In this document: one piece after another, positions 239 through 20,378 of the stretch | How the letters are laid out: the number at the start of each line of letters is the position of its first letter | Position numbering within the stretch: position 1 is the first letter of the stretch | IMG/VR virus record: IMGVR_UViG_3300032093_000939 | Span: 1-22,113 of that record | Source: a virus | DNA: 22,113 bases | Reading direction: 5' to 3' (one strand) | The notes under the pieces: generated by a model | The model's database searches: none | Seen by the model: only the letters and a program-made list of their open reading frames with translations | What the model was told of the DNA's origin: nothing | Translations under genes and position numbers: made by a program

Positions 239-604
239 ATGTCGTACATTGGAAATCAAGTAACATCTGTACCTTTTACTGCTGATGTTTTCAGTGGTAC
301 AGGTAGCGAAACGGTCTTTGGACCAATGATACGCATACCTGCTACTGCTGCTTCTGTGGCAGTTTTTGTTGATGGTTCTTATAAGACTCCAGGTGTCGAT
401 TATACATTAAATGTAGATTACCTTGTCTTTACAACACCACCAGCATCAGGTACAAATAATGTTGTTGCACACCATTTAGGTAATGGTGTCATGGCGACAC
501 AAGTTCCAGTCGATGGTTCAGTAACAGTAGCAAAATTTTCACCATCAGCAAATTCAAAAATTACAGGTTCGGGCTTAGTCGGCTCAATCATTTTCGGAGG
601 TTAA
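239..604 (+). CDS. Small beta-sandwich fibre-tip-like protein (121 aa)
   Basis: The ATG is preceded by AAGGA at 229-233. Residues about 10-85 show the pattern 'VFVDGSYKTPGVDYTL...YLVFTTPPASG', a small beta-sandwich common at the ends of phage fibres. The same pattern occurs three times in tandem near the C-terminus of the giant fibre encoded at 7155-12947. The tail, from 'VPVDGSVTVAKFS' to 'GSIIFGG', also parallels that fibre's own ending ('VIPDGSITSQKLS' to 'MSIVFGG'). The gene therefore looks like a free-standing copy of one fibre beta domain plus its C-terminal tail. A structural or receptor-contact role is inferred. No catalytic motif is visible. Its last codons (TTC GGA GGT) supply the ribosome binding site of the next gene. 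Confidence 0.8.
   Translation: MSYIGNQVTSVPFTADVFSGTGSETVFGPMIRIPATAASVAVFVDGSYKTPGVDYTLNVDYLVFTTPPASGTNNVVAHHLGNGVMATQVPVDGSVTVAKFSPSANSKITGSGLVGSIIFGG
596..600 (+). promoter_or_regulatory. Ribosome binding site GGAGG inside the upstream stop region
   Basis: GGAGG ends 7 bases before the ATG at 608. It is formed by the last two glycine codons of the previous gene (TTC GGA GGT TAA). The conserved protein ending FGG and the next gene's ribosome binding site therefore share the same bases, which suggests coupled translation. Confidence 0.65.
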
Positions 605-607
605 TAA

Positions 608-991
608 ATGGCTGCGCCAAACATTGTTAGCGTATTAGATATTAGAGGTAAAAGTAATGTCGCCAACATTACTACCGTTGCATCATCAGTAATTGTTAAT
701 CCCGTCAACTCAAATAAAGTGTTTAAAATTAACACACTGATTGTATCAAATGTTGACGGAACAAACGCTGGCAATGTATCAGTAGAACTGTTTAAATTTG
801 GCGCACAAAATTCAAGCACAGGTGTTGGTAACTCAGTTTATGCAATCGCAAACGTAGTTACTGTACCTGCCAAATCATCACTTGATATTCTGTCAAAATC
901 ACTTTACTTAGAAGAAGGTGATAATATCAGAGTCAGGGCTGATGCAAACAATCGTCTACACTTCATCTCATCGTTCGAAGAGATTAGCTAA
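608..991 (+). CDS. Small beta-rich structural protein (127 aa), function unknown
   Basis: The start is fixed by GGAGG at 596-600. The protein has alternating hydrophobic strands ('VFKINTLIVSNVDG', 'NVSVELFKFGAQ', 'NVVTVPAKSSLDIL', 'LYLEEGDNIRVRAD'). This resembles a compact beta-sandwich: the 'VPAKSSLDILSKSLYLEEGDNIRV' pattern recalls small phage proteins with a jelly-roll or Ig-like fold. There are no cysteines, no signal peptide and no membrane segment. It ends in a TAATG overlap with the glycine-rich gene that follows, so the two are probably translated together. It may be an accessory subunit of the fibre or baseplate periphery. That role is inferred from neighbours only. Confidence 0.75.
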   Translation: MAAPNIVSVLDIRGKSNVANITTVASSVIVNPVNSNKVFKINTLIVSNVDGTNAGNVSVELFKFGAQNSSTGVGNSVYAIANVVTVPAKSSLDILSKSLYLEEGDNIRVRADANNRLHFISSFEEIS

Positions 992-3576
992 TGCCTTTAG
1001 GTTTAAATGGCGGTTTGATTGGTCTAAACAACCCATCGTCATTTGTTGGCGCTTCGGGTATTTGGACACTTGACCAAATAGGTATCAGTAGACTTGCTGG
1101 CTTATGGCCAGACCCGTCTGTTGGTGTTCAGGTTTTCAATGAAAGTACAACCTGGGTAGCACCATCAGGTGTAACGCAGGTTGAATACCTTGTCGTTGCT
1201 GGTGGTGGTGCTGGTGGAACATTGGGTGGCGGTGGTGGTGCAGGTGGGTTTTTAAGTGGAACAAACTTAGTTGTTACACCAGGACAATTGTATACAATCG
1301 TTGTTGGTGCGGGTGGTGGCGCAGGAAATTTTGGTCCAGCAGCGTCTAGAGGCTCAAACGGTTCAAACTCTGGCATCTGGTCTTCGTCGCCATTTCCTGC
1401 TATTTGGGGAGTGGGTGGTGGTGCCGGTGGTGGTGATGATCCCAGTCCTTTGAATACTGCTGGATGTTCTGGCGGTTCGGGTGGTGGTGCAGGAAGAGTT
1501 GCTCCATTTCAAGGAGGTGCAGCCACACCAGGACAAGGATTTGGTGGTGGAAACGCCGTAACAGTTGGACCAGGTGATATCTCAGCGGGTGGAGGTGGTG
1601 CTGGTTCAGCAGGCACTTCTGGCACATCTAGCCCAGTGGTTGCTGGTGGTAATGGCGGTATAGGTATTTTCTCTTCTATTACTGGAGCCAATGTTGGTTA
1701 TGCTGGAGGTGGTGGTGGAGGTGCATATTTTTCGGCGACTATAAATGGTTTTGGTGGTGGTGGTAATCCTTCATATGGTGGAGGAAATTCTTCACCTGTG
1801 TTCACAACTACCACAGCACAAAGTGGTGCAAATAATTCGGGTGGTGGTGGTGGAGGTAGTTCTTATCAGGGTTCTCCTGTCAGTCAATATGGTAAAGCAG
1901 GTGGTGGCGCCTCTGGTGTAGTCATCCTCAAATGGCGATTCAACAATCCCGCTAATCAAGTTTTTGTCTTTGCAAACACAGGACAATTCAGAGTACCTGA
2001 TGGTGTAACATCAATTGATTATCTATTAGTCGCTGGAGGTGGTGGCGGTGGCGCTCGTATAGGTGGTGGCGGTGGTGCAGGTGGTTTATTGCAAGGTATG
2101 GGGTACTCCGTAGGACCAAATCAACTTTACACAATAACAATAGGTGCTGGTGGCTCAGCCGGCGCACATCCAGTCGCCGGTGGTAATGGAGTAAACACAA
2201 TCTTATCTGCTGGTAACACAGCTAATGCTCCATTATTCACGGCGATAGGTGGTGGGGGTGGTGCTGCAACCGATAGTGGTTATGGTAGAAATGGTGGTTC
2301 AGGTGGTGGTAATGGTAGAGGTATAAACAATACAACACCAGGAGGAAGAGCCACTCCCGGTCAGGGGTTTGATGGTGGTGCTGGTGGTAGTGTTTCTGGT
2401 AATAATAGTGACCGTTCTGGTGGAGGAGGTGGTGCTAGTGGCGCCGGCTTTGGTGGACCAGCAGCCTCACCAACGGGTTCTTCAAATGGTGGTATCGGAA
2501 TATTTTCGTCAATCACTGGTGCTAATGTTGGTTATGCAGGTGGGGGTGGTGGCGGCGCCTATGCAAACCCAACAAACGCACCTTTCGGACATTTTATTTG
2601 TGGTGGTGCAAATGGGGTGAATTCCCCATCAGCATCAACCGGTGGGAACGGTTTAACGAATCGTGGTGGCGGCGGCGGTGGTGGTGGTTATACCGATGCG
2701 GGTGCAACAGCTTATAATGGTGGCGCCGGCGGTTCTGGTTTTGCAGTCATCAAAGTTTCCTCTGTGCAAAACAAAATCGTAATCTTTTCTAACACAGCCA
2801 CATGGAACGTACCTGCTGGTGTAACAAGTGTTGAATATCTCATCGTCGGTGGTGGTGGTGCTGGAGGCACTGACGGTGGTACTGGTGCTGGTGCAGGCGG
2901 TGGTGGTGCTGGTGGTTTTAGAACAAGTCCGGCACTAACAGTTACACCTGGAGCAACAATGACCATCAGTGTTGGTGGTGGTGGAGCAGCAGGCGCACCT
3001 TCACCTGGCGCACAATCTACAAACGGTTCTAATTCAGGTATTTTTGGTTCTTCACCATTTACTGCTGTATGGTCATCAGGTGGTGGTAGAGGTGGTGGTT
3101 ATTCCGCACCAGCATATTATGCAGCAATGTCGGGTGGTTCTGGTGGTGGCGCCACTGGCTATATTCAAGTAACAGGTGCGCCAGGTAATCTTGGTGGTTA
3201 TTCACCTTCAGAGGGTAGTGCGGGTGGATCAACTCCTGGTGGCGCACAATACGCTGGTGCCGGCGGTGGTGGTGCTGGTGGTGTAGGACAAAATGGAACT
3301 GGTCCAGCAGCAGGTAATGGCGGCATAGGAATATTCTCATCAATTTCCGGATCAAACACAGGTTATGCTGCTGGCGGTGGCGGTGGTGGAAACAATACTG
3401 ATGGTCCTGGTGCTGATGGTGGCATGGGTATAGGCGGTCGTGGTGGCACAGGACCTGCCACTAGTGGAACTACTGGAGCTGCTGCCACTGGTAGTGGTGG
3501 CGGCGGTGGTGTTGAAAACTCAGGAACAACAGGTGGTTCTGGTGGTGGCGGTATCGTCATTCTCAAATGGACATAA
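991..3576 (+). CDS. Glycine-rich three-module fibre/adhesin protein, copy 1 (861 aa)
   Basis: The ATG overlaps the preceding stop (TAATG). Residues 1-44 form an N-terminal segment ('NGGLIGLNN...GIWTLDQI...LWPDPSVGVQVF') shared with the next gene and probably an attachment element. Three modules follow at about residues 45-318, 322-590 and 594-861. Each opens with 'F-x-x-T-x-x-W/F-x-V/A-P-x-G-V-T-x-V/I-x-YL', then a long tract of GGG runs, an inner 'NGGIGIFSSITGAN' element, and a closing strand such as 'GVVILKW'. The last module ends VILKWT. These are glycine-rich phage domains. In the T4-like phage S16 adhesin gp38, glycine-rich stretches pack as polyglycine-II helices, and a similar fold with receptor contact is inferred here. 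Module 2 is much closer to module 2 of the distant copy at 14219-16666 than to its own neighbours. Confidence 0.8.
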   Translation: MPLGLNGGLIGLNNPSSFVGASGIWTLDQIGISRLAGLWPDPSVGVQVFNESTTWVAPSGVTQVEYLVVAGGGAGGTLGGGGGAGGFLSGTNLVVTPGQLYTIVVGAGGGAGNFGPAASRGSNGSNSGIWSSSPFPAIWGVGGGAGGGDDPSPLNTAGCSGGSGGGAGRVAPFQGGAATPGQGFGGGNAVTVGPGDISAGGGGAGSAGTSGTSSPVVAGGNGGIGIFSSITGANVGYAGGGGGGAYFSATINGFGGGGNPSYGGGNSSPVFTTTTAQSGANNSGGGGGGSSYQGSPVSQYGKAGGGASGVVILKWRFNNPANQVFVFANTGQFRVPDGVTSIDYLLVAGGGGGGARIGGGGGAGGLLQGMGYSVGPNQLYTITIGAGGSAGAHPVAGGNGVNTILSAGNTANAPLFTAIGGGGGAATDSGYGRNGGSGGGNGRGINNTTPGGRATPGQGFDGGAGGSVSGNNSDRSGGGGGASGAGFGGPAASPTGSSNGGIGIFSSITGANVGYAGGGGGGAYANPTNAPFGHFICGGANGVNSPSASTGGNGLTNRGGGGGGGGYTDAGATAYNGGAGGSGFAVIKVSSVQNKIVIFSNTATWNVPAGVTSVEYLIVGGGGAGGTDGGTGAGAGGGGAGGFRTSPALTVTPGATMTISVGGGGAAGAPSPGAQSTNGSNSGIFGSSPFTAVWSSGGGRGGGYSAPAYYAAMSGGSGGGATGYIQVTGAPGNLGGYSPSEGSAGGSTPGGAQYAGAGGGGAGGVGQNGTGPAAGNGGIGIFSSISGSNTGYAAGGGGGGNNTDGPGADGGMGIGGRGGTGPATSGTTGAAATGSGGGGGVENSGTTGGSGGGGIVILKWT
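1123..3573 (+). repeat. Three tandem glycine-rich modules (about 270 residues each) in copy 1
   Basis: The units start near 1123, 1954 and 2770. Each has an opening strand pair, GGT/GGC/GGA tracts, the 'IFSSITGANVGY' type element and a closing 'VI(L/K)' strand. The copies are diverged at DNA level but clearly homologous in protein. The coding strand is strongly biased to G, and the antisense proline-rich frames are a by-product. Confidence 0.8.
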
Positions 3577-3579
3577 CAA

Positions 3580-6048
3580 ATGGCAATTAGTAGAAGATTT
3601 AATGGTGGTATAATTGGTGTTAGAAATATTTCTACACCTATTTCTGCTGTGGGTATGTGGACAACTAATGAAATTCAATTAGCAAAAATATCCAATCTGT
3701 GGCCAGACCCACCTGTTGGTGTTCAAGTTTTCACGACAAGTTCATCGTGGGTGGCCCCAACGGGTGTGTCGGAAGTTGAATATCTTGTTGTTGGTGGTGG
3801 AGGTGGCGGTGGTTACGGTGGTGTTGGTGGTGGCGGCGGTGGCGCCGGTGGTGTTTTACAAGGCACCAATCTTTCTGTGACACCGGGACAAACTTATACA
3901 ATTACAATTGGTGGAGGTGGCGCAACATCAGACTATAACGCTGAAGGTAAAATAGGTTCAAACTCTTCATTAACTGCTGGTGCTCCATTTTCAAATGTAG
4001 TCGCTTTTGGTGGAGGCGGCGGACATCAATATGTTCCACCTGTTGTGATTGGTTCTTCTGGTGGTAATCAAGGCACAAACACTCAAATTATAACAGTAAA
4101 TACACTCAGCCAAGGAAATCGTGGAGGTGGCGGACAACCCGGCACTGGCTATTCGGGTGGTGGCGGCGGCGGTGCTGGTGGAAATGGATTTAATGGTGCT
4201 TCTGGAGTTGGTGGTAATGGTGGTGTAGGAATATTTTCTACGATTACTGGTTCAAATACAGCATATGCTGGAGGTGGTGCGGGTGGTGGTCCTGGACAAT
4301 TTTCTGCACCTACTGCACCGGGCGCAAGGGGTGGTGCTGGTGGTGGTGGAAATGGAGCGGTCAGTGACCCTGGTGACGGTACAGAAGGAGTAATCAACAC
4401 TGGTGGTGGTGGTGGCGGACATCGTGGTGGTTCTGGTATTGGTGGAAGAGCAGGTGGCTCCGGCGTAGTCATTCTCAGATGGCGTTTCAACAATCCTGCC
4501 AATCAAATTTTCTTTTTTGCAAATACAGGTCAGTTTAGAGTTCCTGAAGGTGTAACAACAATTGATTATCTATTAGTGGGCGGTGGCGGCGGTGGTGGAT
4601 CAAGCAGAGGCGGTGGTGGTGGTGCGGGTGGTTTATTGCAGGGCACCAATTTCCCTGTAAATGTAAACGACATATACACAATTACCATTGGTGCAGGCGG
4701 TGCAGGAGCATCTTCAAACGGCACAAGAGGTTCTAATGGTGGTAATTCTATTTTTAGCACCCTTGTTAGCATTGGCGGCGGTGGCGGTGGTGGAGATAAT
4801 GGTGGTGCTGGTCAAAATTTTGGACTCTCCGGTGGTTCGGGTGGTGGTGGGTCTGGGACATTTGGTGTTCAATTAGGTGGTTTAGGAACTTTAGGTCAAG
4901 GAAATAATGGAGGCAGCAGTTTTGATGGGGGTTCACGTTCAGCGGGTGGCGGCGGTGGTGCGGGTGCTGTTGGCTCCAATGGGACTTCAAGTGTTTCTGG
5001 TGCTGGTGGAGTAGGAGCATTTTCAACAATTACTGGTTCAAACACAGCATATGCTGGTGGTGGTGGAGGTGGTGCTGGAGATTCTCCGGGCACCGCCGGT
5101 AATGGTGGTACGGGTGGTGGTGGACAAGGAAGTGATGCAACAAGAAATGCAACTGCTGGCGCAAACACAACAGGTGGTGGTGGCGGTGGTAAAGGAACAA
5201 CTTATTTAAGCACAAATGCTGGCGGTGCGGGTGGCTCAGGTTTTGCAGTTATCAAAGTTTCTGGTACACAAAACAAACTGGCAATTTTCTCAAACACTGC
5301 TGCATGGACTGCTCCAGAAGGCGTCATAAGTGTAGAATATTTAATTGTTGCTGGTGGTGGCGGTGGTGGTACCGTTGGTGGCGGCGGTGGCGGCGGTGGT
5401 GGGTATAGAACATCGTCCAGTTTGGCTGTGACTCCAAGACAAACATACACTGTTGTTGTTGGTGGCGGTGGTGGCGGTGCTATCTTCCCAATATTTCAAG
5501 GTTCAAACGGCTCAAATTCTGGAATTTATGGTACATCACCATTTCCTTCTGTTTGGTCTGAAGGTGGTGGCGGTGGGGGTGGCGGATTTTCTACACCACA
5601 GGGTGATGGTAGAAGTGGTGGTTCAGGTGGTGGTGGAGGATGTCCAGGCAGTGGTTATTCAAATGGCGGTGACGGAATAGGTGCGCCTGGTGTATCGGGG
5701 CAAGGCAACTCTGGTGGAACAGGTCGTCACAACCCAGGATTTTTTGCATACACCGCTGGTGGTGGTGGTGCTGGTGGTTCTGGAGGAAGCGCACCAGTTA
5801 ATTTTGGTGGCGTAGGAGCGTTTTCTTCAATTACAGGAGCAAACACTGGTTATTCTGGTGGTGGAGGGGGCTCTGCTGCATCAGCCGGTGCCGGCACAGG
5901 TGGAAGTGGTGGAGGTGCCAATGGTGGACCTAATGGTAATGGTTTTTCCTCAAACAATTTCACTGGTGGAGGCGGTGGTGGTGGCTATTTCCCGAACTTT
6001 AACGGAGGTTCTGGTGGCTCTGGTATTGTTATTCTCAAATGGACATAA
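3580..6048 (+). CDS. Glycine-rich three-module fibre/adhesin protein, copy 2 (822 aa)
   Basis: It begins 3 bases after the stop of copy 1 with no obvious ribosome binding site, so coupled translation is likely. Residues 1-46 ('FNGGIIGVRN...GMWTTNEI...LWPDPPVGVQVF') match the N-terminal segment of copy 1. The modules lie at about residues 47-305, 308-562 and 565-822. The first junction, 'VILRWRFNNPANQ', is almost the same as in copy 1 ('VILKWRFNNPANQ'), and the protein ends VILKWT. The interior loops are much diverged, as expected if these regions face selection by host receptors. It is probably a tail-fibre or baseplate-edge adhesin. The pair is a tandem gene duplication. No chaperone or enzymatic domain is visible. 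Confidence 0.8.
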   Translation: MAISRRFNGGIIGVRNISTPISAVGMWTTNEIQLAKISNLWPDPPVGVQVFTTSSSWVAPTGVSEVEYLVVGGGGGGGYGGVGGGGGGAGGVLQGTNLSVTPGQTYTITIGGGGATSDYNAEGKIGSNSSLTAGAPFSNVVAFGGGGGHQYVPPVVIGSSGGNQGTNTQIITVNTLSQGNRGGGGQPGTGYSGGGGGGAGGNGFNGASGVGGNGGVGIFSTITGSNTAYAGGGAGGGPGQFSAPTAPGARGGAGGGGNGAVSDPGDGTEGVINTGGGGGGHRGGSGIGGRAGGSGVVILRWRFNNPANQIFFFANTGQFRVPEGVTTIDYLLVGGGGGGGSSRGGGGGAGGLLQGTNFPVNVNDIYTITIGAGGAGASSNGTRGSNGGNSIFSTLVSIGGGGGGGDNGGAGQNFGLSGGSGGGGSGTFGVQLGGLGTLGQGNNGGSSFDGGSRSAGGGGGAGAVGSNGTSSVSGAGGVGAFSTITGSNTAYAGGGGGGAGDSPGTAGNGGTGGGGQGSDATRNATAGANTTGGGGGGKGTTYLSTNAGGAGGSGFAVIKVSGTQNKLAIFSNTAAWTAPEGVISVEYLIVAGGGGGGTVGGGGGGGGGYRTSSSLAVTPRQTYTVVVGGGGGGAIFPIFQGSNGSNSGIYGTSPFPSVWSEGGGGGGGGFSTPQGDGRSGGSGGGGGCPGSGYSNGGDGIGAPGVSGQGNSGGTGRHNPGFFAYTAGGGGAGGSGGSAPVNFGGVGAFSSITGANTGYSGGGGGSAASAGAGTGGSGGGANGGPNGNGFSSNNFTGGGGGGGYFPNFNGGSGGSGIVILKWT
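3718..6045 (+). repeat. Three tandem glycine-rich modules in copy 2
   Basis: The units begin near 3718, 4501 and 5272. They follow the same scheme as copy 1, with 'GIFSTITGSNTAYAGGG' in modules 1 and 2 and 'GAFSSITGANTGYSGGG' in module 3. Runs of GGN codons reach eight or more glycines near 5340-5400. Confidence 0.75.
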
Positions 6049-6923: not shown

Positions 6924-7145
6924 ATGCCAGATTTAGGTAAAGTCACGGTTTTTCAACCAAATAGAACAACGCTTGTATCACCAAATTATAAACCAAAACC
7001 AAACGTTACTTTAGCTGAGATAAACGATGTATCAACTGAGGATGTTCAAGATGGTGACTCTTTAGTTTACAGTTCAGCCAATAATCGTTTTGAAATGAAA
7101 ATTGCTACTACCGTTTTAGAAAAACTTGACGGTGGATTATTCTAA
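6924..7145 (+). CDS. Small linker-type structural protein (73 aa)
   Basis: The ATG follows ACGAGGTAAG, so the ribosome binding site is partly inside the previous gene. The N-terminal part is proline- and asparagine-rich. The core 'LAEINDVSTEDVQDGDSLVYSSANNRFEMK' is the 'd-V-d-t...v-q-d-G-D-x-L-v-Y...n-x-F' repeat seen in many phage fibre proteins, and the end 'LEKLDGGLF' resembles the '...DGGtF' ending of marine phage virion proteins. It is small enough to be a connector between the baseplate and the giant fibre encoded 9 bases downstream. That role is inferred from sequence type and position only. Confidence 0.75.
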   Translation: MPDLGKVTVFQPNRTTLVSPNYKPKPNVTLAEINDVSTEDVQDGDSLVYSSANNRFEMKIATTVLEKLDGGLF

Positions 7146-7154
7146 GAATTACAA

Positions 7155-10100
7155 ATGGCAAATACACCAATTCAAATAAAACGTTCGCTAACGTCGAACA
7201 CACCAGCAACACTAAACATTGGCGAACCAGCGTATTCGTACAGCAGTAATACATTATTCATTGGTTCACCAGCAGAAACGGGTGCCATTCCTATTGGCGG
7301 CTACGATTCTTACATTCGTGGCATTTCTGCTTATGATAAATTAAACACCGCACACAATCATGCAAATTCTGCTTATGTTCGTGCAAATAATGCACTGAAT
7401 GCAAATGTTGGTGGCTTAATTACCGGTGATGTTGTCATTCAAGGTAATCTAAGTATCGTTGGTGGTTCGATTGGTGCCAATGTACCTGTTGTATTAATTG
7501 GTGATAATATCATTTCACTGAATACTGCAATCAGTCCGTCGGGTGAACCGACAATGAATGCAGGTATTGAAATTGATCGTGGCGCACAACCAAATGTTTA
7601 TTTGTTATGGAATGAAACAGATAACAAATGGCAGTTTACAAATGACGGTGTTACATATGACGACTTCGGCGGTTCTGCTGCCTCTTCATATGCCAACTCT
7701 GCATTTGTAAAAGCAAACTCGGCATTTTTACACGCCAACTATTCGTTCAATCATGCCAACTCAGGTTTTATTCAGGCAAACTCAGCATTCTTACACGCCA
7801 ACTTTGCTTTTGCCAATGCAAATGCTGGTCTTGCGATGGCCAATGCGGCATATATTCATGCCAACTCAGGATTCATTCAAGCCAACTCATCGTTCTTCCA
7901 TGTAAATGCGGCATACTTACACGCAAATGCGGCATACACAAGTCAGAACACAAGTGGCATCAGAGCAAACTCGGCATTTGAACAAGCCAACGCAGCATTC
8001 TTTCATGCTAATTCGGCATTTCAGTTTCAGAATACATCAGGTAATTATGCGAACAGTGGTTTCATTCAAGCCAACTCTGCATATCATCATGCTAATGCTG
8101 CCTTTGCAAATGCTAATGGTGCTTTTGCTGCCGCTAATGCTGCTTACATTCAAGCAAACTCGGCATTTATACAAACGAATGCAGCATTTATTCATGCAAA
8201 CAGTGGTTTCATAAAAACAAATTCAGCGTTTGATCATGCGAACGCTGCCTTTGCAAATGCTAACGGTGCCTTTGCTAGAGCCAATGCCGCTTTTGCAAAT
8301 GCCAATGGTGCGTTTGCTGCTGCTAATGCTGCATATATTCAAGCAAACTCAGGATTCATTCAGTCCAACGCCGCATTCAATCATGCAAATGCAGGATTTA
8401 TTCGTGCAAACAATTCACTCAATGCAAACGTTGGTGGTCAAGTTACTGGTGATGTTGTCATTGTTGGTAATCTTACATCAAATACTTTAACAACAACGGG
8501 TTCAAATGGTAGCATTACAGGTGCTAATGCTATCTTCTCAAATTATTTCTTTGGTGCAAACGGTACAGTAGACCTGTATGTCTACACATCATATGCTTTC
8601 GCAAATGCCAATGGTGCTTTTGCTAGAGCCAATGCTGCCTTTGCAAACGCTAACGGTGCTTTTGCTGCTGCTAACGCCGCATACATTCAGGCTAACAGTG
8701 CATTTATAAAAACGAATGCCGCTTTTGATCACGCCAATGCGGCATACATCTCACAGAATGCAACTGGTCAGTATGCTAATGCTGCATTCATTTGGGCAAA
8801 TGCTGCGTACAATCAAGCAAATACTGACAAAGCAAACTTAGTTAATAGTGGCTTCACTGCTCAATTACATTCAAATGGTGCATTTGCTCTTCCCGGCACT
8901 TTAATATTCGGACCTTCCAAAGGAAGAATTACCAATCAGGGTGATGGAGTATTATCAATAACAGCAAATGCACAAAGTGGTAATACTGGAATATATTTGG
9001 ATAATGCTAGTCAAGCAGTGCTGTATGGTAAAACTAGCGTTCTTATTCAGACGAATCAAGGTCTTTTTGATTCACCAACAAGAAGTTTCACGTTCACTCA
9101 AGATGGTACAATAACATTACCAGCATCACGTGGAGATATCGGTAGAAGTGGTTTCCCGAATGGTATTGATTTATATAACAATAACGGTGGCGCTGGTTAT
9201 GTAAGAATGAATTTTGCCGACGAATCGGTTATGTGGGTTGATCCGGGTGGCGCACATATTCAAACCACTGGAACTACAAGCAATACATGGGACTTTGGTA
9301 CAGATGGCCAGATAAGATTTCCGGATTCTACAAAACAATTCACAGCATTCATTGGCTATGGTATTGATAATGTTGCAAGAGATACTTCAAACTCAGCATT
9401 CATTCGTGCTAACAATTCATTAGACGCAAATCTTGGTGGTACAGTTACCGCTAATGTTGTAATTGATGCTAATCTAACTACACAAAATGTATTTGTTGGT
9501 TCGTATATTGATCTAAACACATCATCTTCTGTACCACCAAGAAATGAAGGTCGTATTTTTTACGACAATGATCAAAAAACTTTAGCATACAACAACGAAT
9601 CTGATAACACGATTCAACTTGGTCAAGAAACAGTAATTCGTGTATGGAACAATTCTGGTACCACGATTGACAGAGGCAAAGTTGCCCGTATAGGTGGTGA
9701 TGCATCAGCAAATGGCTTCCCTGCTGTTGCACTTGCTTCTGCTGACATTGCTGCAAATGCAGAAGTTGTTGGTGTTACTTCAACTGCAATTGCAAATAAT
9801 GATTATGGTTATGTAACGATACATGGTAAAATCAGAGGACTTAACACTTCATTATTGGCTGCTGGACAAGAGTTGTTCTTGTCAGATACGCCGGGTGAAT
9901 ATCAAACAACTCCTCCAGTGCCGCCAAGTATACCAATGGCAGTTGGTTATGTTACTCTGTCAGACGTAACAGACGGTTCAATTCTCGTCTATTCACATTT
10001 GATGGAAGGCAAGAATAAAACAAATGGTGCTATTCTGTTTGGTCGTAATGGTGCAATTGATCAAGACCCAACTAAACTGTATTGGGATTATGCCAACGAC

Positions 10101-12947
10101 CGTTTAGGCATTGATACAGACAGCCCACAAGCAAACCTACACGTTGCTGGTGATGGTTTGTTCACAGGTAATCTGACTATCACAGGCAATCTTGTAATTA
10201 GTAATGCTCAAACAATTACTACGGACCAATTGTTTGTTGGTGGTAACAATGTAATTCTGAGTGCCAATGTTACTGGTACACCAACACTCAATGCCGCAAT
10301 CATTGTCAATCGTGGTTCATCACCAAACGCATATATTCTTTGGGATGAAACTGTTAATGAATGGTTAGCATATGAAGGATCGGGTGAACCCGGCCATATT
10401 ATTCTTGCAAATAAAACTGCGAACAGTTGGGCAGTATATGACACGTTTGAAGCATACGAAAAAGAGTTTTATCCTATTGGTGCGAATCTTGCAAACAGTA
10501 CAAATGAACACGCTAAAGCGGGATTTGCGACAGCGAACATTGCAGAGAACTTAGCAACTGCAAGTTTTAAACATGCAAACTCCGGATTCATTCAGGCAAA
10601 CTCATCGTATGTTCATGCGAATGCGGCTTATCTATCGCAAAATGCAACTGGTCAATATGCCAATGCGGCATTTATACATGCGAACTCTGCATATCAGTCA
10701 CAGAATGCTACAGGTCAATACGCTAATGCTGCGTTTACTGTAGCCAACGGCGCATTTATTCATACCAACTCCGCATTCGGTCATGCCAACGCAGCATATC
10801 AGTCACAGAATGCGACTGGTCAATATGCAAATGCGGCATTTATACATGCTAACAGTGGTTACATTCATGTCAACTCAGCCTTTGATCATGCCAATGCTGC
10901 TTACGTAAGTCAAAACTCAACTGGTAATTATGCCAACGCTGCTTTTGCAAATGCAAATGCTGGTCTTGCGATGGCCAATGCCGCTTTTGCCAATGCTAAT
11001 GGTGCATTCGCTTCTGCTAATGCGGCGTTCAACACGGGCAATTCAGCATTTATTCAGGCTAATGCATCGTTTGACCATGCCAATGCAGCCTTTGCGGCGG
11101 CAAACAATGTATTCCCGCAAGTACAGCCCGCATACGATACTGCCAACTCAGCATTTATACATGCTAATGCATCGTTTGATAAAGCAAATACGGCCGATCA
11201 AAATGCACTATCTGCCGGATCATATGCTAACTCTGCGTTTGTACACGCCAACGCTGCATTTGCTTCTGCAAACAATGTAGCACCACAGGTACAACCGGCG
11301 TTTAATACCGCCAATGCGGCATTCATTCAAGCCAATGCGTCATTTATCACAGCAAACAACGCTGATGCAAATGCTTCGTCTGCTGGTGTATACGCTAATG
11401 GTGCATACGCCCATGCGAATGCTGCGTTTGCTGCTGCTAATAATGTAGCACCGCAAGTTCAGCCGGCGTTTCATACCGCCAATGCAGCATTCATACAAGC
11501 CAATGCTGGCATACTTCATGCACAGTCAGCCTTTCATCACGCAAATGCTGGATTTGATGCTGCTAACACTGCTGACGATAAAGCAGTAACGGCAAGTAAC
11601 CGTGCAAATGCGGCATTTATCGTTGCGAATGCTACGACGATTCAAGCGAATGCTGGTTTTGATCATGCAAATTCTGGATTTGTGCAGGCAAACTCTGCAT
11701 TCTTCCATGCAAATAGTGGATTCATTCAAGCGAATGCATCATACAATCAAGCGAATGCATCATTCATTGTAGCGAATGCAACTTCGTCACAGGCCAATGC
11801 AGCATTTGACCATGCGAATGCGGCGTTTGCTTCAGCAAATAATGTAGCACCACAAGTACAACCAGCATTTAACACTGCAAATTCTGCGTTTATACAAGCA
11901 AATGCTGGTATTCTTCATGCACAGTCGGCGTTTAATCATGCCAACAGTGGTTTCATTCACGCCAATTCATCATATGTTCATGCGAATGCGGCATTCAATG
12001 CGGCGAATAATGCATCCGATCCTTGGGTTCGTGGTCAAGCAAATGCTGCCTTTATTCAAGCAAATGCTGCATTTGACAAAGCAAATACGGGTGCTAATGC
12101 TGAAGTCACAACATTTAACACAACATCAAATGGTGCTGTTTCTACTTACGCTTTAGGATTTACACCTGCATCTAACAGTGCGGTGATTGTTTCAATTGGT
12201 GGTATTGTTCAAACTGAACTTGTGGATTATATTGTAACTCGTTCAAATAATTCCATTTCATTTAATGAACCTCCACCTGCTGGTCAATCCATTCGTGTGG
12301 CAGGATTTAATAATGTAGTACCTTATTTCTTAGACATTGCGAATTCTGCTGGTGCTGTAGTATCAACATACAGTGCTGTTGGTGATGGTTCAACTCAAGC
12401 ATTTAGTATTGGATTTAGACCGGAATCAAACAAAGCCATTTTTGTTTCTATTGGTGGTATTTTACAACCCGAAACTGCGTATACCGTAACTCCATCAACA
12501 AACACAGTTACATTTGTCACTGCGCCAGGTAATAATGAAAACATTCGAATTGTTGGCTTTGAAAAAATTAATCCTTATTATATTCAATATGTAAGTTCAA
12601 ATGTCTCTGTATCTGTATTTGAAACAATATCAACTGGTACAACTGCTACATTTAACTTAGGATTTAATCCTCAGGCCCGTGAAACACTTATTGTAACAAT
12701 TGACGGTATTGTCCAGTCTATAAATGATTATACTGTAAATACCGCTTTACAGACAATTACATTAGATGAAATTCCTGCTAATGGTGAATTGGTGCGTGTT
12801 GCCACTATGTACACAACGGCAAACGCATTTGTTATTCCAGATGGCAGCATAACTTCACAAAAATTGAGTACATCACTTAATACATCGATTCAGTCTGCGG
12901 CGACAACAGGTAAAGCAATTGCAATGTCAATTGTATTTGGTGGCTAA
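7155..12947 (+). CDS. Giant tail fibre with heptad repeats and beta domains (1930 aa)
   Basis: The N-terminus ('PIQIKRSLTSNTPATLNIGEPAYSY', about residues 4-28, then 'LFIGSPA') is typical of large fibres of marine T4-like phages. Residues about 80-174 hold a beta module ('TGDVVIQGNL', 'AGIEIDRGAQPNVYLLWNE'). Seven-residue repeats of the form A-N-x-A-F-x-x fill about 176-420, 480-561 and 1115-1652. Between them are beta regions: 567-734, 799-939 (including 'HGKIRGLNTS' and 'GQELFLSDTPGEY'), 975-1017 ('DRLGIDTDSPQANLHVAG'), and 1026-1080, which duplicates the first module ('AAIIVNRGSSPNAYILWDE'). Three small beta-sandwiches follow at about 1651-1895, then a tail ending MSIVFGG. The rods are probably trimeric coiled-coil-like shafts. 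It likely binds the host surface. No C-terminal peptidase or chaperone domain is seen. Confidence 0.85.
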   Translation: MANTPIQIKRSLTSNTPATLNIGEPAYSYSSNTLFIGSPAETGAIPIGGYDSYIRGISAYDKLNTAHNHANSAYVRANNALNANVGGLITGDVVIQGNLSIVGGSIGANVPVVLIGDNIISLNTAISPSGEPTMNAGIEIDRGAQPNVYLLWNETDNKWQFTNDGVTYDDFGGSAASSYANSAFVKANSAFLHANYSFNHANSGFIQANSAFLHANFAFANANAGLAMANAAYIHANSGFIQANSSFFHVNAAYLHANAAYTSQNTSGIRANSAFEQANAAFFHANSAFQFQNTSGNYANSGFIQANSAYHHANAAFANANGAFAAANAAYIQANSAFIQTNAAFIHANSGFIKTNSAFDHANAAFANANGAFARANAAFANANGAFAAANAAYIQANSGFIQSNAAFNHANAGFIRANNSLNANVGGQVTGDVVIVGNLTSNTLTTTGSNGSITGANAIFSNYFFGANGTVDLYVYTSYAFANANGAFARANAAFANANGAFAAANAAYIQANSAFIKTNAAFDHANAAYISQNATGQYANAAFIWANAAYNQANTDKANLVNSGFTAQLHSNGAFALPGTLIFGPSKGRITNQGDGVLSITANAQSGNTGIYLDNASQAVLYGKTSVLIQTNQGLFDSPTRSFTFTQDGTITLPASRGDIGRSGFPNGIDLYNNNGGAGYVRMNFADESVMWVDPGGAHIQTTGTTSNTWDFGTDGQIRFPDSTKQFTAFIGYGIDNVARDTSNSAFIRANNSLDANLGGTVTANVVIDANLTTQNVFVGSYIDLNTSSSVPPRNEGRIFYDNDQKTLAYNNESDNTIQLGQETVIRVWNNSGTTIDRGKVARIGGDASANGFPAVALASADIAANAEVVGVTSTAIANNDYGYVTIHGKIRGLNTSLLAAGQELFLSDTPGEYQTTPPVPPSIPMAVGYVTLSDVTDGSILVYSHLMEGKNKTNGAILFGRNGAIDQDPTKLYWDYANDRLGIDTDSPQANLHVAGDGLFTGNLTITGNLVISNAQTITTDQLFVGGNNVILSANVTGTPTLNAAIIVNRGSSPNAYILWDETVNEWLAYEGSGEPGHIILANKTANSWAVYDTFEAYEKEFYPIGANLANSTNEHAKAGFATANIAENLATASFKHANSGFIQANSSYVHANAAYLSQNATGQYANAAFIHANSAYQSQNATGQYANAAFTVANGAFIHTNSAFGHANAAYQSQNATGQYANAAFIHANSGYIHVNSAFDHANAAYVSQNSTGNYANAAFANANAGLAMANAAFANANGAFASANAAFNTGNSAFIQANASFDHANAAFAAANNVFPQVQPAYDTANSAFIHANASFDKANTADQNALSAGSYANSAFVHANAAFASANNVAPQVQPAFNTANAAFIQANASFITANNADANASSAGVYANGAYAHANAAFAAANNVAPQVQPAFHTANAAFIQANAGILHAQSAFHHANAGFDAANTADDKAVTASNRANAAFIVANATTIQANAGFDHANSGFVQANSAFFHANSGFIQANASYNQANASFIVANATSSQANAAFDHANAAFASANNVAPQVQPAFNTANSAFIQANAGILHAQSAFNHANSGFIHANSSYVHANAAFNAANNASDPWVRGQANAAFIQANAAFDKANTGANAEVTTFNTTSNGAVSTYALGFTPASNSAVIVSIGGIVQTELVDYIVTRSNNSISFNEPPPAGQSIRVAGFNNVVPYFLDIANSAGAVVSTYSAVGDGSTQAFSIGFRPESNKAIFVSIGGILQPETAYTVTPSTNTVTFVTAPGNNENIRIVGFEKINPYYIQYVSSNVSVSVFETISTGTTATFNLGFNPQARETLIVTIDGIVQSINDYTVNTALQTITLDEIPANGELVRVATMYTTANAFVIPDGSITSQKLSTSLNTSIQSAATTGKAIAMSIVFGG
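7681..8412 (+). repeat. Heptad repeat block 1 of the giant fibre (21-bp period)
   Basis: Tandem 21-base units encode A-N-[SA]-[AG]-[FY]-x-x. Inner variants such as 'FANANGAFAAANAAYIQAN' recur (near 8100, 8300 and again near 8650). Breaks of the form 'SQNTSGxxAN' interrupt the register. Confidence 0.85.
8592..8835 (+). repeat. Heptad repeat block 2 of the giant fibre
   Basis: This shorter block has the same 21-base units and lies after an inserted 'GGQVTGDVVIVGNL' beta module. Its DNA from about 8596 to 8700 closely resembles 8245-8350, which points to internal duplication. Confidence 0.8.
10496..12110 (+). repeat. Heptad repeat block 3 of the giant fibre, with 168-bp super-repeats
   Basis: This is the longest block. 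Besides simple A-N-x-A-F-x-x units it contains four copies of 'NNV(F/A)PQVQPA(Y/F)' starting at 11103, 11271, 11439 and 11838. The spacings are 168, 168 and 399 bases, or 8, 8 and 19 heptads, so register is kept. 'SQNATGQYANAAF' also recurs near 10636, 10693 and 10810. Confidence 0.85.
12106..12840 (+). repeat. Three tandem small beta-sandwich domains at the fibre C-terminus
   Basis: The units carry 'NSAVIVSIGGIVQ...DYIV', 'NKAIFVSIGGILQ...AYTV' and 'RETLIVTIDGIVQ...DYTV', each followed by a strand and a 'G-x-x-(I/V)-R-(I/V)-(A/V)' close. They are homologous to the stand-alone 121-residue protein encoded at 239-604. Confidence 0.8.
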
Positions 12948-12974: not shown

Positions 12975-13508
12975 ATGACGCAAAGAATAAACACTAATAG
13001 ATTTGCCAATACTTCGGTTACTGGAGCCAAAATAGCCGTTGGTACAATTACGGGTAATTTGGTTGCTAATAACACGATTGCTTCTGTAAAACTTGCTCCA
13101 GTAAATCGTTTATTGGAAAATGCTAATTTGATTTCAAGTTCAACAAGCGGTAATGTAAATGTATCACTTGATGACAATTCAGTTTATTATGTAACCAGTA
13201 ATGTTGCTGATAATGTTACTTTTAATATTCGGGTAAGTCCAGAAACTACTTTAAATAGTTTTATGGCAAACGGTCAATCAATTACTACAGCATTCATATT
13301 GACACAAGGCTCCACACAGTTCTTGGCCAATTTGGCAATTGATGGTGTTTATCAATCAGGCAATACAAGATGGAGTGGTAACACTAGACCGACTTATGCA
13401 GCATCACTTACGAATCAACAATTAGATGTTTATACCTTCACATCAATTAAAACAGGATCCAATGCGTTTTCAGTTTTAGGATCAAGAACATCATATGGAT
13501 TTGGTTAA
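12975..13508 (+). CDS. Fibre-associated beta protein, tandem paralogue A (177 aa)
   Basis: I chose the ATG at 12975 because the ATG at 12965 meets a stop after one codon. Residues about 8-40 form a short repeat-like stretch ('NTSVTGAKIAVGTITGNLVANNTI') with an aliphatic residue about every five positions. The rest is a beta domain ('SGNVNVSLDDNSVYYVTSNV', 'NVTFNIRV', 'GQSITTAFILTQGS', 'LDVYTFTSI') that aligns end to end with the next gene. The aliphatic five-residue pattern is common in phage fibre proteins. It is probably a virion protein near the fibre tip. I do not recognise a named family. It follows the giant fibre by 27 bases. Confidence 0.75.
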   Translation: MTQRINTNRFANTSVTGAKIAVGTITGNLVANNTIASVKLAPVNRLLENANLISSSTSGNVNVSLDDNSVYYVTSNVADNVTFNIRVSPETTLNSFMANGQSITTAFILTQGSTQFLANLAIDGVYQSGNTRWSGNTRPTYAASLTNQQLDVYTFTSIKTGSNAFSVLGSRTSYGFG

Positions 13509-13512
13509 TTAA

Positions 13513-14070
13513 ATGTCAGATCAAAAAGTAGAATCAGGTCGTATTGCAGATGGTGCAATTATTGGAAACAAAATTGCAGGTAATGCCGTTCGTGCAAACA
13601 ATATTGTAGCAGGTCAAATTGCAGGCAACACTCTTGCTGCAAACCTTCACATATCTTTGAGTCAAGTTCTTGAATCTGCAAATGTATACTCCGTTGCTGT
13701 TGGTGGTAATGTAAACATTGATTTAGAAAACAATACTGTTTATTTCTTTTCTTCAAACACAACAGCAAATGTAACTTTTAATTTTAGAGCGAACACACAA
13801 AATACTCTTGATTCACAGTTGACTATTGGACAAACAATTACTGCGGCAATTTTATTGAAGCATGGTGCAACGAGATATCGTGCCAATGTTTATGTTGATG
13901 GTACTTTACAAAATCCTTGGTGGGCAGGAAATTCAGCTCCTGGTTTTTCTACTACACAACAAGAATCCATTGACATATATTCATTTAATATTTTAAAAAC
14001 GGCAGCAAATGTTTACACAGTATTAGCGGCAAATAGTAATTTTCAAAGAGCGTTAAATCAAAACCCCTAA
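13513..14070 (+). CDS. Fibre-associated beta protein, tandem paralogue B (185 aa)
   Basis: It starts 4 bases after paralogue A. Residues about 9-45 show a five-residue periodicity N-x-(I/V/L)-x-(A/G) ('GNKIAGNAVRANNIVAGQIA'), which would suit a small beta-helix or stacked-turn element. The following domain ('GGNVNIDLENNTVYFFSSNT', 'NVTFNFRA', 'GQTITAAILLKHGATRYRAN', 'IDIYSFNI') matches paralogue A, including the 'VDG' turn and the W-containing loop ('NPWWAGNS' against 'TRWSGNT'). The two genes are a tandem duplication that has diverged in the loops. A structural role in the fibre cassette is inferred from neighbours. Confidence 0.75.
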   Translation: MSDQKVESGRIADGAIIGNKIAGNAVRANNIVAGQIAGNTLAANLHISLSQVLESANVYSVAVGGNVNIDLENNTVYFFSSNTTANVTFNFRANTQNTLDSQLTIGQTITAAILLKHGATRYRANVYVDGTLQNPWWAGNSAPGFSTTQQESIDIYSFNILKTAANVYTVLAANSNFQRALNQNP

Positions 14071-14078
14071 GGTGTAAA

Positions 14079-14219
14079 ATGATACAAAAAGTTGAAACTG
14101 GAATAATACAAGTTCGTGCAGTTACAGGCAATTTGATTGCAAATAACGCCGTTAGCGCAAACAACATCGTTTCACCACCCGACATTTTTGACGATGCGTT
14201 TTTATTCGGTGGAATGTAA
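14079..14219 (+). CDS. 46-residue mini-protein related to the N-termini of its two upstream neighbours
   Basis: ATG at 14079 to TAA at 14217-14219, with AAGGTG at 14069-14074 as a plausible ribosome binding site. The product begins MIQKVETGIIQVRAV and continues with 'TGNLIANNAVSANNIVS', closely resembling 'TGNLVANNTI' of paralogue A and 'GNAVRANNIVAG' of paralogue B. It lacks their beta domain and instead ends DDAFLFGGM, which recalls the FGG tails of the 121-residue protein and the giant fibre. The stop overlaps the start of the third glycine-rich gene (TAATG), so the two are probably made together. It could be an adaptor for that protein or a remnant of a third tandem copy. The clean overlap at both ends favours a real gene. 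Confidence 0.7.
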   Translation: MIQKVETGIIQVRAVTGNLIANNAVSANNIVSPPDIFDDAFLFGGM

Positions 14220-16666
14220 TGCCTTTGTTGTCAACTTTTGCGGTTGGTTCTTTACCTGGGATTCTTGGCAGAGGCATCTCTGCTAGTGCTGCCATAGTTT
14301 CATATACAGTCACAAGAATATTCACTCAAGCAACAACATGGGTAGCACCTTCGGGTGTGACATCTGTTGATTATCTTTTAGTCGCCGGTGGTGGAGGTGG
14401 TGGTTCTTTTGGTGGTGGCGGTGGTGCCGGTGGAGTTTTACAAGGCATCGGTTTTTCTGTAACGCCGGGTCAATCATACACAATTACAATAGGTGGTGGA
14501 GGTGCTGCCGCTACCAGTTCCGATAATGGTATAAACGGAAGCAACGGCTCCAACTCAGTATTCGGTTCACTAACAGCGATAGGTGGTGGTGGCGGTGGAA
14601 CAAGAAATGGCAATCCATATGCTGGACAACCTGGGTTTTCGGGTGGCTCTGGTGGTGGTGGCGCAAATTCTGACCCTGCTTTTAATGCACCTGGGGGACT
14701 AGGTACTCCAGGACAAGGAAACAATGGAGGTGCTGGTGGTTCTGGTGTAAGCGGTACACCAAATTATGGTCATGGTGGCGGCGGTGGTGCTGCTAACACT
14801 GGTCAAAACGGGAAAGCAAATGGTGCTTTTGGTGCAGCAGGTGGTGCGGGAATATACTCTACTATATCTGGTGCCAATGTAGCATATGGTGGCGGCGGTG
14901 GTGGAGGTGTATACACAAACGGCACTGTAGGTGGCGGTGGTATTGGTGGTGGTGGTAATGGTGGGGGTAATTATCCCGGTGCGCCGCCAGTGCAAAGTGG
15001 CACAGCAAATACTGGCGGTGGCGGTGGCGGCGGAGCTTACACAGCGGCAGGTGGGGCAGGTGGGTCCGGCATCATCATCATTCGCTATACAGAAACCGCA
15101 GGTGTCAATGGTGTATATGTATTTGCAAACACTGGTCAATTAGTAATACCCCCCGGCGTTACTAATATTGACTATCTATTAATTGCTGGAGGTGGAGGTG
15201 GTGGTGGTCGTATTGGTGGTGGCGGTGGTGCTGGCGGTTTATTGCAAGGTACAGGTTATGTAGTAGCACCCGAACAACTTTACACAATTCAGATTGGTGG
15301 AGGTGGCACGGCGGGTGCTCCTGGTGTCGGTAGTAATGGAGTAAACACAGTTCTTTCTGCTGGAAACACAGTAACTTCTTCTGTTCTTTTGACTGCAATA
15401 GGTGGTGGGGGAGGTGCTGCAACAGACAGTGGATATGGACAATCCGGTGGTTCTGGTGGTGGTAATGGCAGAGGTTTAAATAATTCAACGCCAGGAGGAA
15501 GAGGCACACCAGGTCAAGGATTCGATGGTGGTGCCGGTGGAAGTGCGGTTGGTGGTGGCACTGATCGTTCTGGTGGAGGAGGTGGTGGCGGTGGTGCTGG
15601 CTTTGGCAGCCCGTCAGGAACATCCTCAAATGGTGGCATAGGAATTTTCTCATCAATTACTGGTGCTAATGTTGGTTATGCCGGTGGTGGTGGCGGTGGT
15701 GCATATTTAAATCCAACAAACACACCATTTGGACATTTTATTTGTGGCGGTGCAAATGGCGTAAATTCTCCATCGGCGGCAACTGGAGGTGTTGCTGTAT
15801 CTAATCGTGGTGGTGGTGGCGGTGGTGGTGGATATACTGGTGAACCTGGAACTGCTGGTGGTGCTGGTGGCTCAGGTTTTGCTGTTATTAGAGTATCGGC
15901 TTTACAAAATAAATTTACTGTTTTCTCTAACACCACAACATGGACAGTACCAACAGGCACAACAAGTCTTGAATACCTAATCGTCGCTGGCGGTGGTGGA
16001 GGTGGAGGTTCTGTTGCAGGTGGCGGTGGTGCTGGTGGATTTCTTACAGGCACAAATTTAGCAGTATCTCCGGGACAAGTTTATACAGTTGTCGTTGGAG
16101 GTGGTGGTGGAGGTGGTCCATCACAAGTAGCGGGAACAAATGGATCAAATTCAGGCGTTTTTAGCACATCACCAGTGTCTAGTTTGTGGGCAACCGGTGG
16201 AGGTGGTGGTGCTACTGGTGCTCCAAGCAGTGGCACATTTGCAAGAAGTGGTGGTTCTGGTGGAGGAGGCACTTCTTATCCTGGACAACCGGCAGGTCTA
16301 ATAGCCGGCGCACCTGGAACACCAGGTCAAGGAAACAGCGGCGGAAATGGTGCTAATGATGCTGGCGGTGGCGGCGGTGGTGCAGGAGGAGCAGGACAGA
16401 ATGGTGCAGTTGGTGGAGGCGGTGGCACTGGTGGTGTAGGATTATTTTCAACACTTTCTGGTTCGAGTATTGGATATGCCGGTGGTGGCGGTGGTGGTAG
16501 CGGAAACAGTGGAGGAACTGCTTCTCAAGGCGGTAGTGCTGGTGCTACAAATGCGGCAGCCGCAGCAAATACCAACTCCGGTGGTGGTGGAGGCGGCGGA
16601 TGGCTGTATTCTGGTGGTGCCGGTGGTGCTGGTGGTTCAGGTGTAGTCATTCTCAAATGGACTTAG
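14219..16666 (+). CDS. Glycine-rich three-module fibre/adhesin protein, copy 3 (815 aa)
   Basis: The ATG overlaps the mini-gene stop. Unlike copies 1 and 2 it lacks the 'LWPDP' N-terminal segment and instead has about 30 residues beginning MPLLSTFAVGSLPGILGRG. The modules lie at about residues 31-293, 297-560 and 564-815, with the same openings ('TTWVAPSGVTSVDYLLVAGG', 'GQLVIPPGVTNIDYLL', 'TTWTVPTGTTSLEYLIV') and the same VILKWT ending. Module 2 shares long stretches with module 2 of copy 1, including 'NPTNTPFGHFICGGANGV'. This implies duplication or gene conversion across about 13 kb. It is probably an adhesin attached to the tail. The altered N-terminus suggests a different partner, perhaps the adjacent 46-residue protein. 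Confidence 0.8.
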   Translation: MPLLSTFAVGSLPGILGRGISASAAIVSYTVTRIFTQATTWVAPSGVTSVDYLLVAGGGGGGSFGGGGGAGGVLQGIGFSVTPGQSYTITIGGGGAAATSSDNGINGSNGSNSVFGSLTAIGGGGGGTRNGNPYAGQPGFSGGSGGGGANSDPAFNAPGGLGTPGQGNNGGAGGSGVSGTPNYGHGGGGGAANTGQNGKANGAFGAAGGAGIYSTISGANVAYGGGGGGGVYTNGTVGGGGIGGGGNGGGNYPGAPPVQSGTANTGGGGGGGAYTAAGGAGGSGIIIIRYTETAGVNGVYVFANTGQLVIPPGVTNIDYLLIAGGGGGGGRIGGGGGAGGLLQGTGYVVAPEQLYTIQIGGGGTAGAPGVGSNGVNTVLSAGNTVTSSVLLTAIGGGGGAATDSGYGQSGGSGGGNGRGLNNSTPGGRGTPGQGFDGGAGGSAVGGGTDRSGGGGGGGGAGFGSPSGTSSNGGIGIFSSITGANVGYAGGGGGGAYLNPTNTPFGHFICGGANGVNSPSAATGGVAVSNRGGGGGGGGYTGEPGTAGGAGGSGFAVIRVSALQNKFTVFSNTTTWTVPTGTTSLEYLIVAGGGGGGGSVAGGGGAGGFLTGTNLAVSPGQVYTVVVGGGGGGGPSQVAGTNGSNSGVFSTSPVSSLWATGGGGGATGAPSSGTFARSGGSGGGGTSYPGQPAGLIAGAPGTPGQGNSGGNGANDAGGGGGGAGGAGQNGAVGGGGGTGGVGLFSTLSGSSIGYAGGGGGGSGNSGGTASQGGSAGATNAAAAANTNSGGGGGGGWLYSGGAGGAGGSGVVILKWT
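14309..16663 (+). repeat. Three tandem glycine-rich modules in copy 3
   Basis: The units begin near 14309, 15107 and 15908, with the same architecture as in the copies at 1123 and 3718. The internal element is 'IYSTISGANVAYGGGG', 'IFSSITGANVGYAGGG' and 'LFSTLSGSSIGYAGGG' in modules 1 to 3. Confidence 0.75.
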
Positions 16667-19943: not shown

Positions 19944-20378
19944 ATGGAACAACTAATCGAACAGATGAAGGTTATTTTGGGTACAAACTTTGGTTTGTAC
20001 TTCAAAGCACACACCTTCCATTGGAATGTAGAAGGTCCTGACTTTGCACAGTATCATGGTTTCTTAGGAGACTTTTATGAAGCAGTGTTTGATCAGACCG
20101 ATCCGATTGCCGAACACATTCGTGCTTTAAATTCATATGCTCCTACAACTTTGGCAAGAATGATGGAACTATCAAAGGTGCAAGACATCGTTGCTATTCC
20201 TTCACCGCTTATCATGATGTCCGAACTTGCTGCCGATAATGATAAGTTCATTATGGAACTACGTGCTGGTATTGCAATTGCTGACGCTGCTGACGAACCT
20301 GCTGTAGGTAACTTCTTACAAGACATTTTAGATGCTCATCAAAAACATGGTTGGATGCTGAAGAGTTTTACACGATAA
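19944..20378 (+). CDS. dps: Dps-family ferritin-like protein (144 aa) between the terminase genes
   Basis: The core 'HTFHWNVEGPDFAQYHGF', then 'FDQTDPIAEHIRALN', is the Dps signature (H-W-N-V-x-G-x-x-F-x-x-x-H, later D-x-x-A-E-x-I). Dps proteins form twelve-subunit shells that oxidise and store iron using hydrogen peroxide, and some bind DNA. The expected iron ligands are visible at H26, H38, D53 and E57. At the position of E. coli Asp67 the sequence has G42-D43 instead of the usual D-G, so one ligand may be shifted or lost. There is no lysine-rich N-terminal tail (it starts MEQLIEQMKVILG), so tail-mediated DNA binding as in E. coli Dps is unlikely. It lies 4 bases after gene 16 and 3 before gene 17, so late expression with packaging genes is expected. 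Confidence 0.92.
   Translation: MEQLIEQMKVILGTNFGLYFKAHTFHWNVEGPDFAQYHGFLGDFYEAVFDQTDPIAEHIRALNSYAPTTLARMMELSKVQDIVAIPSPLIMMSELAADNDKFIMELRAGIAIADAADEPAVGNFLQDILDAHQKHGWMLKSFTR

Follow-up and report, generated by a model that had tools for sequence, protein, structure and literature searches.

The nearest solved analogue of the locus considered here appears to be the fibre tip of phage S16, where gp37 seats a separate polyglycine adhesin, gp38, by the N-terminal hydrophobic region of the adhesin with its conserved tryptophans (PMC6851490). In the stretch of DNA analysed here (the window, a 22,113-base IMG/VR fragment, record IMGVR_UViG_3300032093_000939) a glycine-rich adhesin of the Pfam family Gly_rich_2 likewise stands beside a carrier gene and has an N-terminal tryptophan-bearing segment. 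However, gp37 of S16 and T2 has an interdigitated beta-helix tip with tryptophan-pocket docking and no intermediate protein, whereas the window has a third small gene between the carrier and the adhesin. Moreover, carriers in the group of the window, however unlike in other respects, end in a short linear tail, and there are several cassettes per genome. The second comparable system is formed by the tail-fibre assembly chaperones. The genes of Pam3 gp25 (PMC9608196) and V22 gp27 (PMC7289586) lie directly downstream of the fibre gene. As with these two proteins, T4 gp38 and Mu Tfa, the MAAPNIV gene of the window is a small gene directly downstream of the carrier, at its tail end. However, no sequence relation between the chaperones and the connectors of the MAAPNIV type was found in the PHROG, Pfam and PDB searches, and the connectors have matching motifs in the genes on either side. 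Finally, in pelagimyophages and cyanomyophages the neck genes are preceded by a hypervariable island of fibre genes, called the host recognition cluster; the window occupies the same place, but the tail-connector pairing seen in its group is absent from the consulted text of that description (PMC7029224).

The window comes from a T4-like aquatic phage, and the gene of the 121-residue protein lies within the host-recognition cluster (Table 1). The gene at 16682 matches a head-tail adaptor family in the profile search, and the gene at 20382 encodes a T4-like large terminase, whose closest relatives among named phages are those of cyanophages and pelagiphages (at most about 55% identity). Directly before the terminase gene there is a Dps/ferritin-like gene (19944-20378, Pfam Ferritin E 4e-20) with 91-92% identity in L054 and L047, an odd member of a packaging operon. 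In L061 the junction of gp13 and gp14 is interrupted by a 194-residue ORF (17293-17877) starting with MATKTYKIYKCTNNVNGKVYIG, which presumably resembles a GIY-YIG endonuclease.

Table 1. Features of the host-recognition region of the window
Feature	Position	Strand	Basis or remark
121-aa adapter protein (putative): head, DGSVT spacer unit, tail	239..604	+	intact ORF
N-terminal MSYIGN beta-sandwich head, predicted T7 gp17-N-like fold, about residues 1-85	239..493	+	structure model; phrog_18673 over residues 1-102
Single ten-residue spacer unit DGSVTVAKFS; up to 9 more in relatives	512..541	+	
Candidate C-terminal docking tail SGLVGSIIFGG, variant of TGKAIAMAIVFGG	569..601	+	L018 orthologue has GKSVAMAIVFGG
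Shine-Dalgarno-like site (GGAGGT) of the next gene, in overlap with both glycine codons	596..601	+	
MAAPNIV connector, 127 aa, phrog_1276 superfamily; proposed tail partner	608..991	+	
Glycine-rich adhesin, N-terminus NGGLIG..SGIW	991..3576	+	Pfam Gly_rich_2 E 6.6e-61
Second glycine-rich adhesin, N-terminus FNGGIIG	3580..6048	+	
1930-aa fibre	7155..12947	+	
Three predicted beta-sandwich domains at the fibre C-terminus	12105..12860	+	structure model, fold matches
Canonical candidate docking tail TGKAIAMSIVFGG of the fibre	12906..12944	+	codons GGT GGC, no Shine-Dalgarno
phrog_5906-type carrier 1	12975..13508	+	profile match
phrog_5906-type carrier 2	13513..14070	+	profile match; 9 of 38 orthologues of the 121-aa gene have this type of end instead of the FGG tail
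Third glycine-rich adhesin	14219..16666	+	

A preliminary description of the window regarded the 121-residue protein as a stand-alone copy of the C-terminal domain of the 1930-residue fibre, sharing with it a beta-sandwich and a C-terminal tail. The likeness itself is confirmed, although it is modest. The second match of the protein within its own record is the fibre end (12630-12944, 36% identity over residues 20-121, E 2.2e-4), and the profiles of the two families match each other as well (E 4.1e-5, probability 70, 74 columns). Single sequences are only weakly similar, as 1, 93 and 13 of 1,000 shuffles of residues 1-101 reach the scores against fibre domains 1, 2 and 3, respectively; thus the case for likeness rests on the family comparison and the folds. 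The head of the small protein is well predicted by AlphaFold2 (pLDDT block means 82-96 over residues 11-80), and its tail is not predicted confidently. The model of the fibre C-terminus (AlphaFold2, mean pLDDT 64.7, last 45 residues unreliable) contains three such domains, the number given in the preliminary description, each with the same strand order as the head. The two models were compared through their matches to solved folds, and 23 of the first 25 entries are common to both. The top matches are phage tail and fibre attachment domains, with Z of 8-10, which is moderate for a small sandwich. In particular, the N-terminal domain of T7 gp17 (7ey9_a) matches the model of the small protein with Z 8.8 (3.2 A over 70 residues) and that of the fibre with Z 9.4 (2.0 A over 67 residues). 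Judging by the models, the head and the fibre domains have the same sandwich fold as this domain (PF03906, Phage_T7_tail), but a shared fold does not prove membership, and neither protein has a sequence match above the Pfam cut-off: fibre domain 3 (residues 1817-1902) scores 23 bits against PF03906 (E 6.9e-5), below the cut-off of 25.2, and the 121-residue protein matches no family in the Pfam scan. At the sequence level the head also matches the N-terminal region of a capsule depolymerase (9k4a, E 8.3e-6), by which it would be a common phage head domain and no more. Both proteins end in SI(I/V)FGG, encoded by mostly different codons (TCAATCATTTTCGGAGGT vs TCAATTGTATTTGGTGGC), and the small gene and the fibre share a tail type, canonically TGKAIAMAIVFGG.

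The fold and the tail are thus common to the two proteins, but the word copy is misplaced: in all 38 loci with a relative of the 121-residue protein, the sandwich forms the N-terminal head in a modular family of its own and starts with M(S/A)YIGNQ. The conserved head is followed by 0-9 extra ten-residue spacers and an exchangeable end, which is a short (I/L/V)FG(G/A) tail in 22 relatives, a phrog_5906-type module in 9 and some other end in 7. The tailed orthologues have 121, 130, 131, 140, 150, 151, 170, 190, 200 or 210 residues, the protein of the window being the shortest form. The end is linked to the next gene. The MAAPNIV gene directly follows 22 of 22 orthologues with FGG/A tails and 0 of 16 with other ends (Fisher's test, 4.5e-11, a value that overstates independence because loci L021-L025, L027-L029, L034-L035 and L039-L040 are near-identical), and a glycine-rich protein is encoded directly after all 9 orthologues with the 5906 end. 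In contig groups that include the small gene as well as the fibre end, MAAPNIV occurs exactly when one or both of these bear the FGG/A tail (11 of 11 groups, 8 with and 3 without MAAPNIV, read from the contigs by eye, absence referring to the sequenced stretch; L015 was left out, as its fibre end is unclear). For instance, L036/L052 has the 5906 end on the small protein and FGG on the fibre and keeps MAAPNIV, as expected if the two proteins share a plug. The orthologous adapter of L034 and L035 carries a fused domain of the ILGQ type, which in L034 has 41% identity over 107 columns to the product of the next gene. This fusion is seen by direct alignment; the PHROG scan at E 0.01 does not report phrog_1276 for the fused part of the L034 protein. 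It is the best hint that adapter and connector may be physically associated.

The pairing of the tail with MAAPNIV holds in a wider sample. In the best 80 of 555 confirmed relatives found by a MAAPNIV profile scan, an ORF with this tail at its end lies 0-18 nt before MAAPNIV in 69 loci (66 with a stricter pattern), although these and the following counts are not independent events, since the loci are related, and the tail patterns were tuned on the same data. Of the 1,280 other genes called in these loci only 4 end in the tail, and one of them (L146) lies 2 nt upstream of the MAAPNIV match there. With the last 30 residues removed and a coverage rule applied, the 69 carriers form 22 clusters and range from 70 to 1,275 residues. 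Clustering of the 80 MAAPNIV proteins gives 61 groups at 95% identity but only 10 at 80%, so that they are related. Eleven MAAPNIV genes have no adjacent tail. In L069-L073, relatives of the window, another carrier and a glycine-rich adhesin gene intervene; in L087, L107 and L108 the tailed gene is elsewhere in the locus; in L137 the tail is 357 nt away; and in the loci of L094 and L101 no tailed gene was found.

The reverse search used the FGG tail pattern only, blind to the neighbour, and gave at least 117 matches, on contigs some of which recur in the forward sample. In 117 of the 117 matches listed the tail is at the C-terminus. MAAPNIV follows in about 103 of 112 testable cases (96 by pattern, 5 visible homologues and 2 after reassignment of the start), 5 others being too near the contig end. 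The exceptions L316 and L327 are fibres of the window's own group, followed by a gene for a 5906 or a 160-residue protein; in L384, L403, L416 and L418 a MAAPNIV-like gene lies farther on; and in L341, L392 and L395 no such gene was seen. The fibre of the window behaves in the same way as L316 and L327: its next gene, 27 nt away, encodes a phrog_5906 protein and not MAAPNIV. Thus the family is modular, and its tail class predicts the next gene, with linkage in both directions. The order of tail, MAAPNIV-type gene and glycine-rich gene is also present in the isolates HTVC033P (gp66-65-64), Bellamy (gp39-40-41) and DSL-LC04. The isolate S-SKS1 is divergent: its tail reads ..SPIMMGMIF, and the protein encoded next is not rich in glycine. 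Topic searches of one library returned no title or abstract opening on the tail-connector pairing, and nothing on the tail letters or phrog_1276.

The MAAPNIV proteins are distant homologues of two other families, ILGQ..AFGTE and MANTFKN. All three match phrog_1276, a family of unknown function: MAAPNIV with E 3.1e-4 (window) and 1.4e-4 (L076), ILGQ with E 3.6e-7, and MANTFKN in 9 of 11 members. Neither the solved-structure searches, including those for PDB sequence matches, gave anything convincing for the connectors, nor did the scanned ones (the L076 protein among them) exceed a Pfam threshold. Twenty-five columns are invariant in 13 aligned members of the MAAPNIV family. Each family is preceded by its own tail: FGG in 66-69 of 80 loci for MAAPNIV, FLxG in 66 of 77 for ILGQ (two further genes are cut by contig ends) and AIALG in 70 of 71 for MANTFKN. 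In the final table of the three families no connector is paired with the tail of another. The counterexample L051 has a FLFGGM tail followed by a 5906 protein instead of its connector. The starts of the downstream proteins differ in parallel: NGGxIG/SGxW in 71 of 78 after MAAPNIV, SLxR in 54 of 78 after ILGQ and MxYIG in 67 of 71 after MANTFKN, counted with patterns that were shaped on the same data and, for SLxR, are loose. Off the diagonal, NGG occurs in 10 of 78 and 10 of 71, SLxR in 3 of 78 and 2 of 71, and YIG in 1 of 78 and 2 of 78 cases, one gene being able to show two motifs; the background in 2,306 genes, cassettes included, is 300, 98 and 160 for NGG, SLxR and YIG. The adhesins after the ILGQ connector in L151-L173 share a similar N-terminus, and their bodies are glycine-rich (G about 0.34) or not (G about 0.11). 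In L003 (5405-9528), upstream of the adapter of the window, an AIALG carrier is followed by a MANTFRN connector, a YIGN adapter ending in FLFGGM, an ILGQ connector and a glycine-rich adhesin.

The 121-residue protein is probably a short two-ended adapter, since it starts with MSYIGN, the motif found after MANTFKN connectors, and ends in a tail of the kind found before MAAPNIV. The tail would be a docking peptide binding the small MAAPNIV protein, and the latter would stay in the virion as a connector and seat the next-encoded glycine-rich adhesins by their N-terminal NGGxIG/SGxW region. The fibre would carry the same plug, which would explain why two very different proteins share an end; as its tail is the canonical form of that of the adapter, the two proteins may differ in reach while displaying the same connector and adhesins. 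Rather than to a small protein mixing with, capping or competing with the fibre tip, the gene neighbourhoods point to one docking tail offered by adapter and fibre alike to a common partner. Since the MxYIGN start is the N-terminal motif after the second connector family, MANTFKN, adapters might also be chained in the order tail, connector, YIGN adapter, connector, adhesin. The generalization to a plug-and-socket code in aquatic phages, in which AIVFGG, FLFGGM and AIALG tails on unlike carriers each dock one subfamily of phrog_1276, and each connector takes one class of N-termini (NGGxIG/SGxW, SLxRM, MxYIGN), we consider evenly balanced between true and false.

The main rival is that MAAPNIV, and with it phrog_1276, is a tail-fibre assembly chaperone, which recognizes the tail as its binding or trimerisation signal, folds the C-terminus of the carrier and then leaves, in the manner of T4 gp38, Pam3 gp25 or V22 gp27. 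Chaperone genes typically lie directly downstream of the fibre gene and their products act at its C-terminus (PMC7289586, PMC9608196), and the observed order of tail and connector fits this equally well. However, three observations are left unexplained by a chaperone role alone: the N-terminal motif after the connector varies with the connector type; the three connector subfamilies have one short tail each, and one of these tails is spread over 22 carrier clusters; and adapter and connector are fused in L034. We regard this role as rather unlikely. Under either role, connector or chaperone, the end motif pointed out in the preliminary description is a functional joint and not a decayed copy. 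It is very unlikely that the MAAPNIV protein is the receptor-binding tip itself and the glycine-rich proteins are separate fibres: although the gene of DSL-LC04 is annotated as a putative lectin, the 25 invariant columns are unlike what is expected of a variable receptor-binding tip, and it is the following adhesins that vary, from glycine-rich to other types.

There are two further explanations. Neighbouring genes may stay together for expression reasons, as GGAGG in the FGG codons is often the ribosome-binding site of the next gene; the FGG end would then be kept by translational coupling, the genes travelling together as a cassette. The 59 tails with the full 12-residue core have 51 nucleotide versions and 13 peptides. 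In 43 of the 51 distinct tails the FGG stretch contains a Shine-Dalgarno-like site, and in 41 the first glycine is encoded by GGA. Thus the last residues are partly constrained by the DNA, but the other ten are not: twelve residues are conserved rather than two, synonymous change is free upstream of the site, some tails with a single G keep the same peptide with the ribosome site after the stop codon, and the fibre tail of the window uses GGT GGC with the next gene 27 nt away. The canonical tail is therefore conserved at the protein level, and coupling as the whole explanation is highly improbable. For the adapter's own variant, SGLVGSIIFGG, codon evidence is weak (among 15 orthologues the last six residues occur in 8 nucleotide and 6 peptide versions), but the L018 orthologue, which also precedes MAAPNIV, bears the canonical GKSVAMAIVFGG in the corresponding position and so connects this variant with the canonical form. 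The other explanation is that of the preliminary description, in which the small protein is a free copy of the fibre end, acting as a cap, as a competitor or as a partner in sequence exchange with the fibre. Besides the same fold and similar tail, it could draw on one genome (L037 10001-10777 and L054 5837-11317) where one alternative module terminates both the small protein and the fibre, with 60 of 99 residues identical. No MAAPNIV gene was seen in this genome, the next genes encoding MALVxKDRVK-type proteins, and identity of the modules at 186 of 291 nucleotides indicates old divergence, so that matched ends are shown, but not recent exchange. Comparison of the two loci across 7 genomes gave no excess of within-genome over between-genome similarity, either in scores or in longest exact nucleotide matches (9 nt in the window), and exchange between them, including the role of the small protein as donor, is not supported. 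As the head is N-terminal in 38 of 38 relatives as well, the free copy is hardly credible.

In most environmental phages it is difficult to distinguish receptor-binding proteins by sequence from the remaining fibre or glycine-rich proteins. Host-recognition parts could be found in metagenomes if the attachment of adhesins is marked by a 12-residue tail and a small connector; phrog_1276 genes would then gain a role, and modular adhesin exchange would get a concrete, testable joint. If the code of tails, connectors and N-termini is true, phages could swap adhesins, add spacers and chain adapters, and the pairing of adhesins with fibres would be readable from sequence. Before the fibre of the window there is a 73-residue protein (6924-7145) ending in LDGGLF, and the fibre itself starts with IQIKRS. 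In Melnitz, LNGGTF precedes IIQIKRT, and the two cases together possibly represent a further pair of a tail and an N-terminus.
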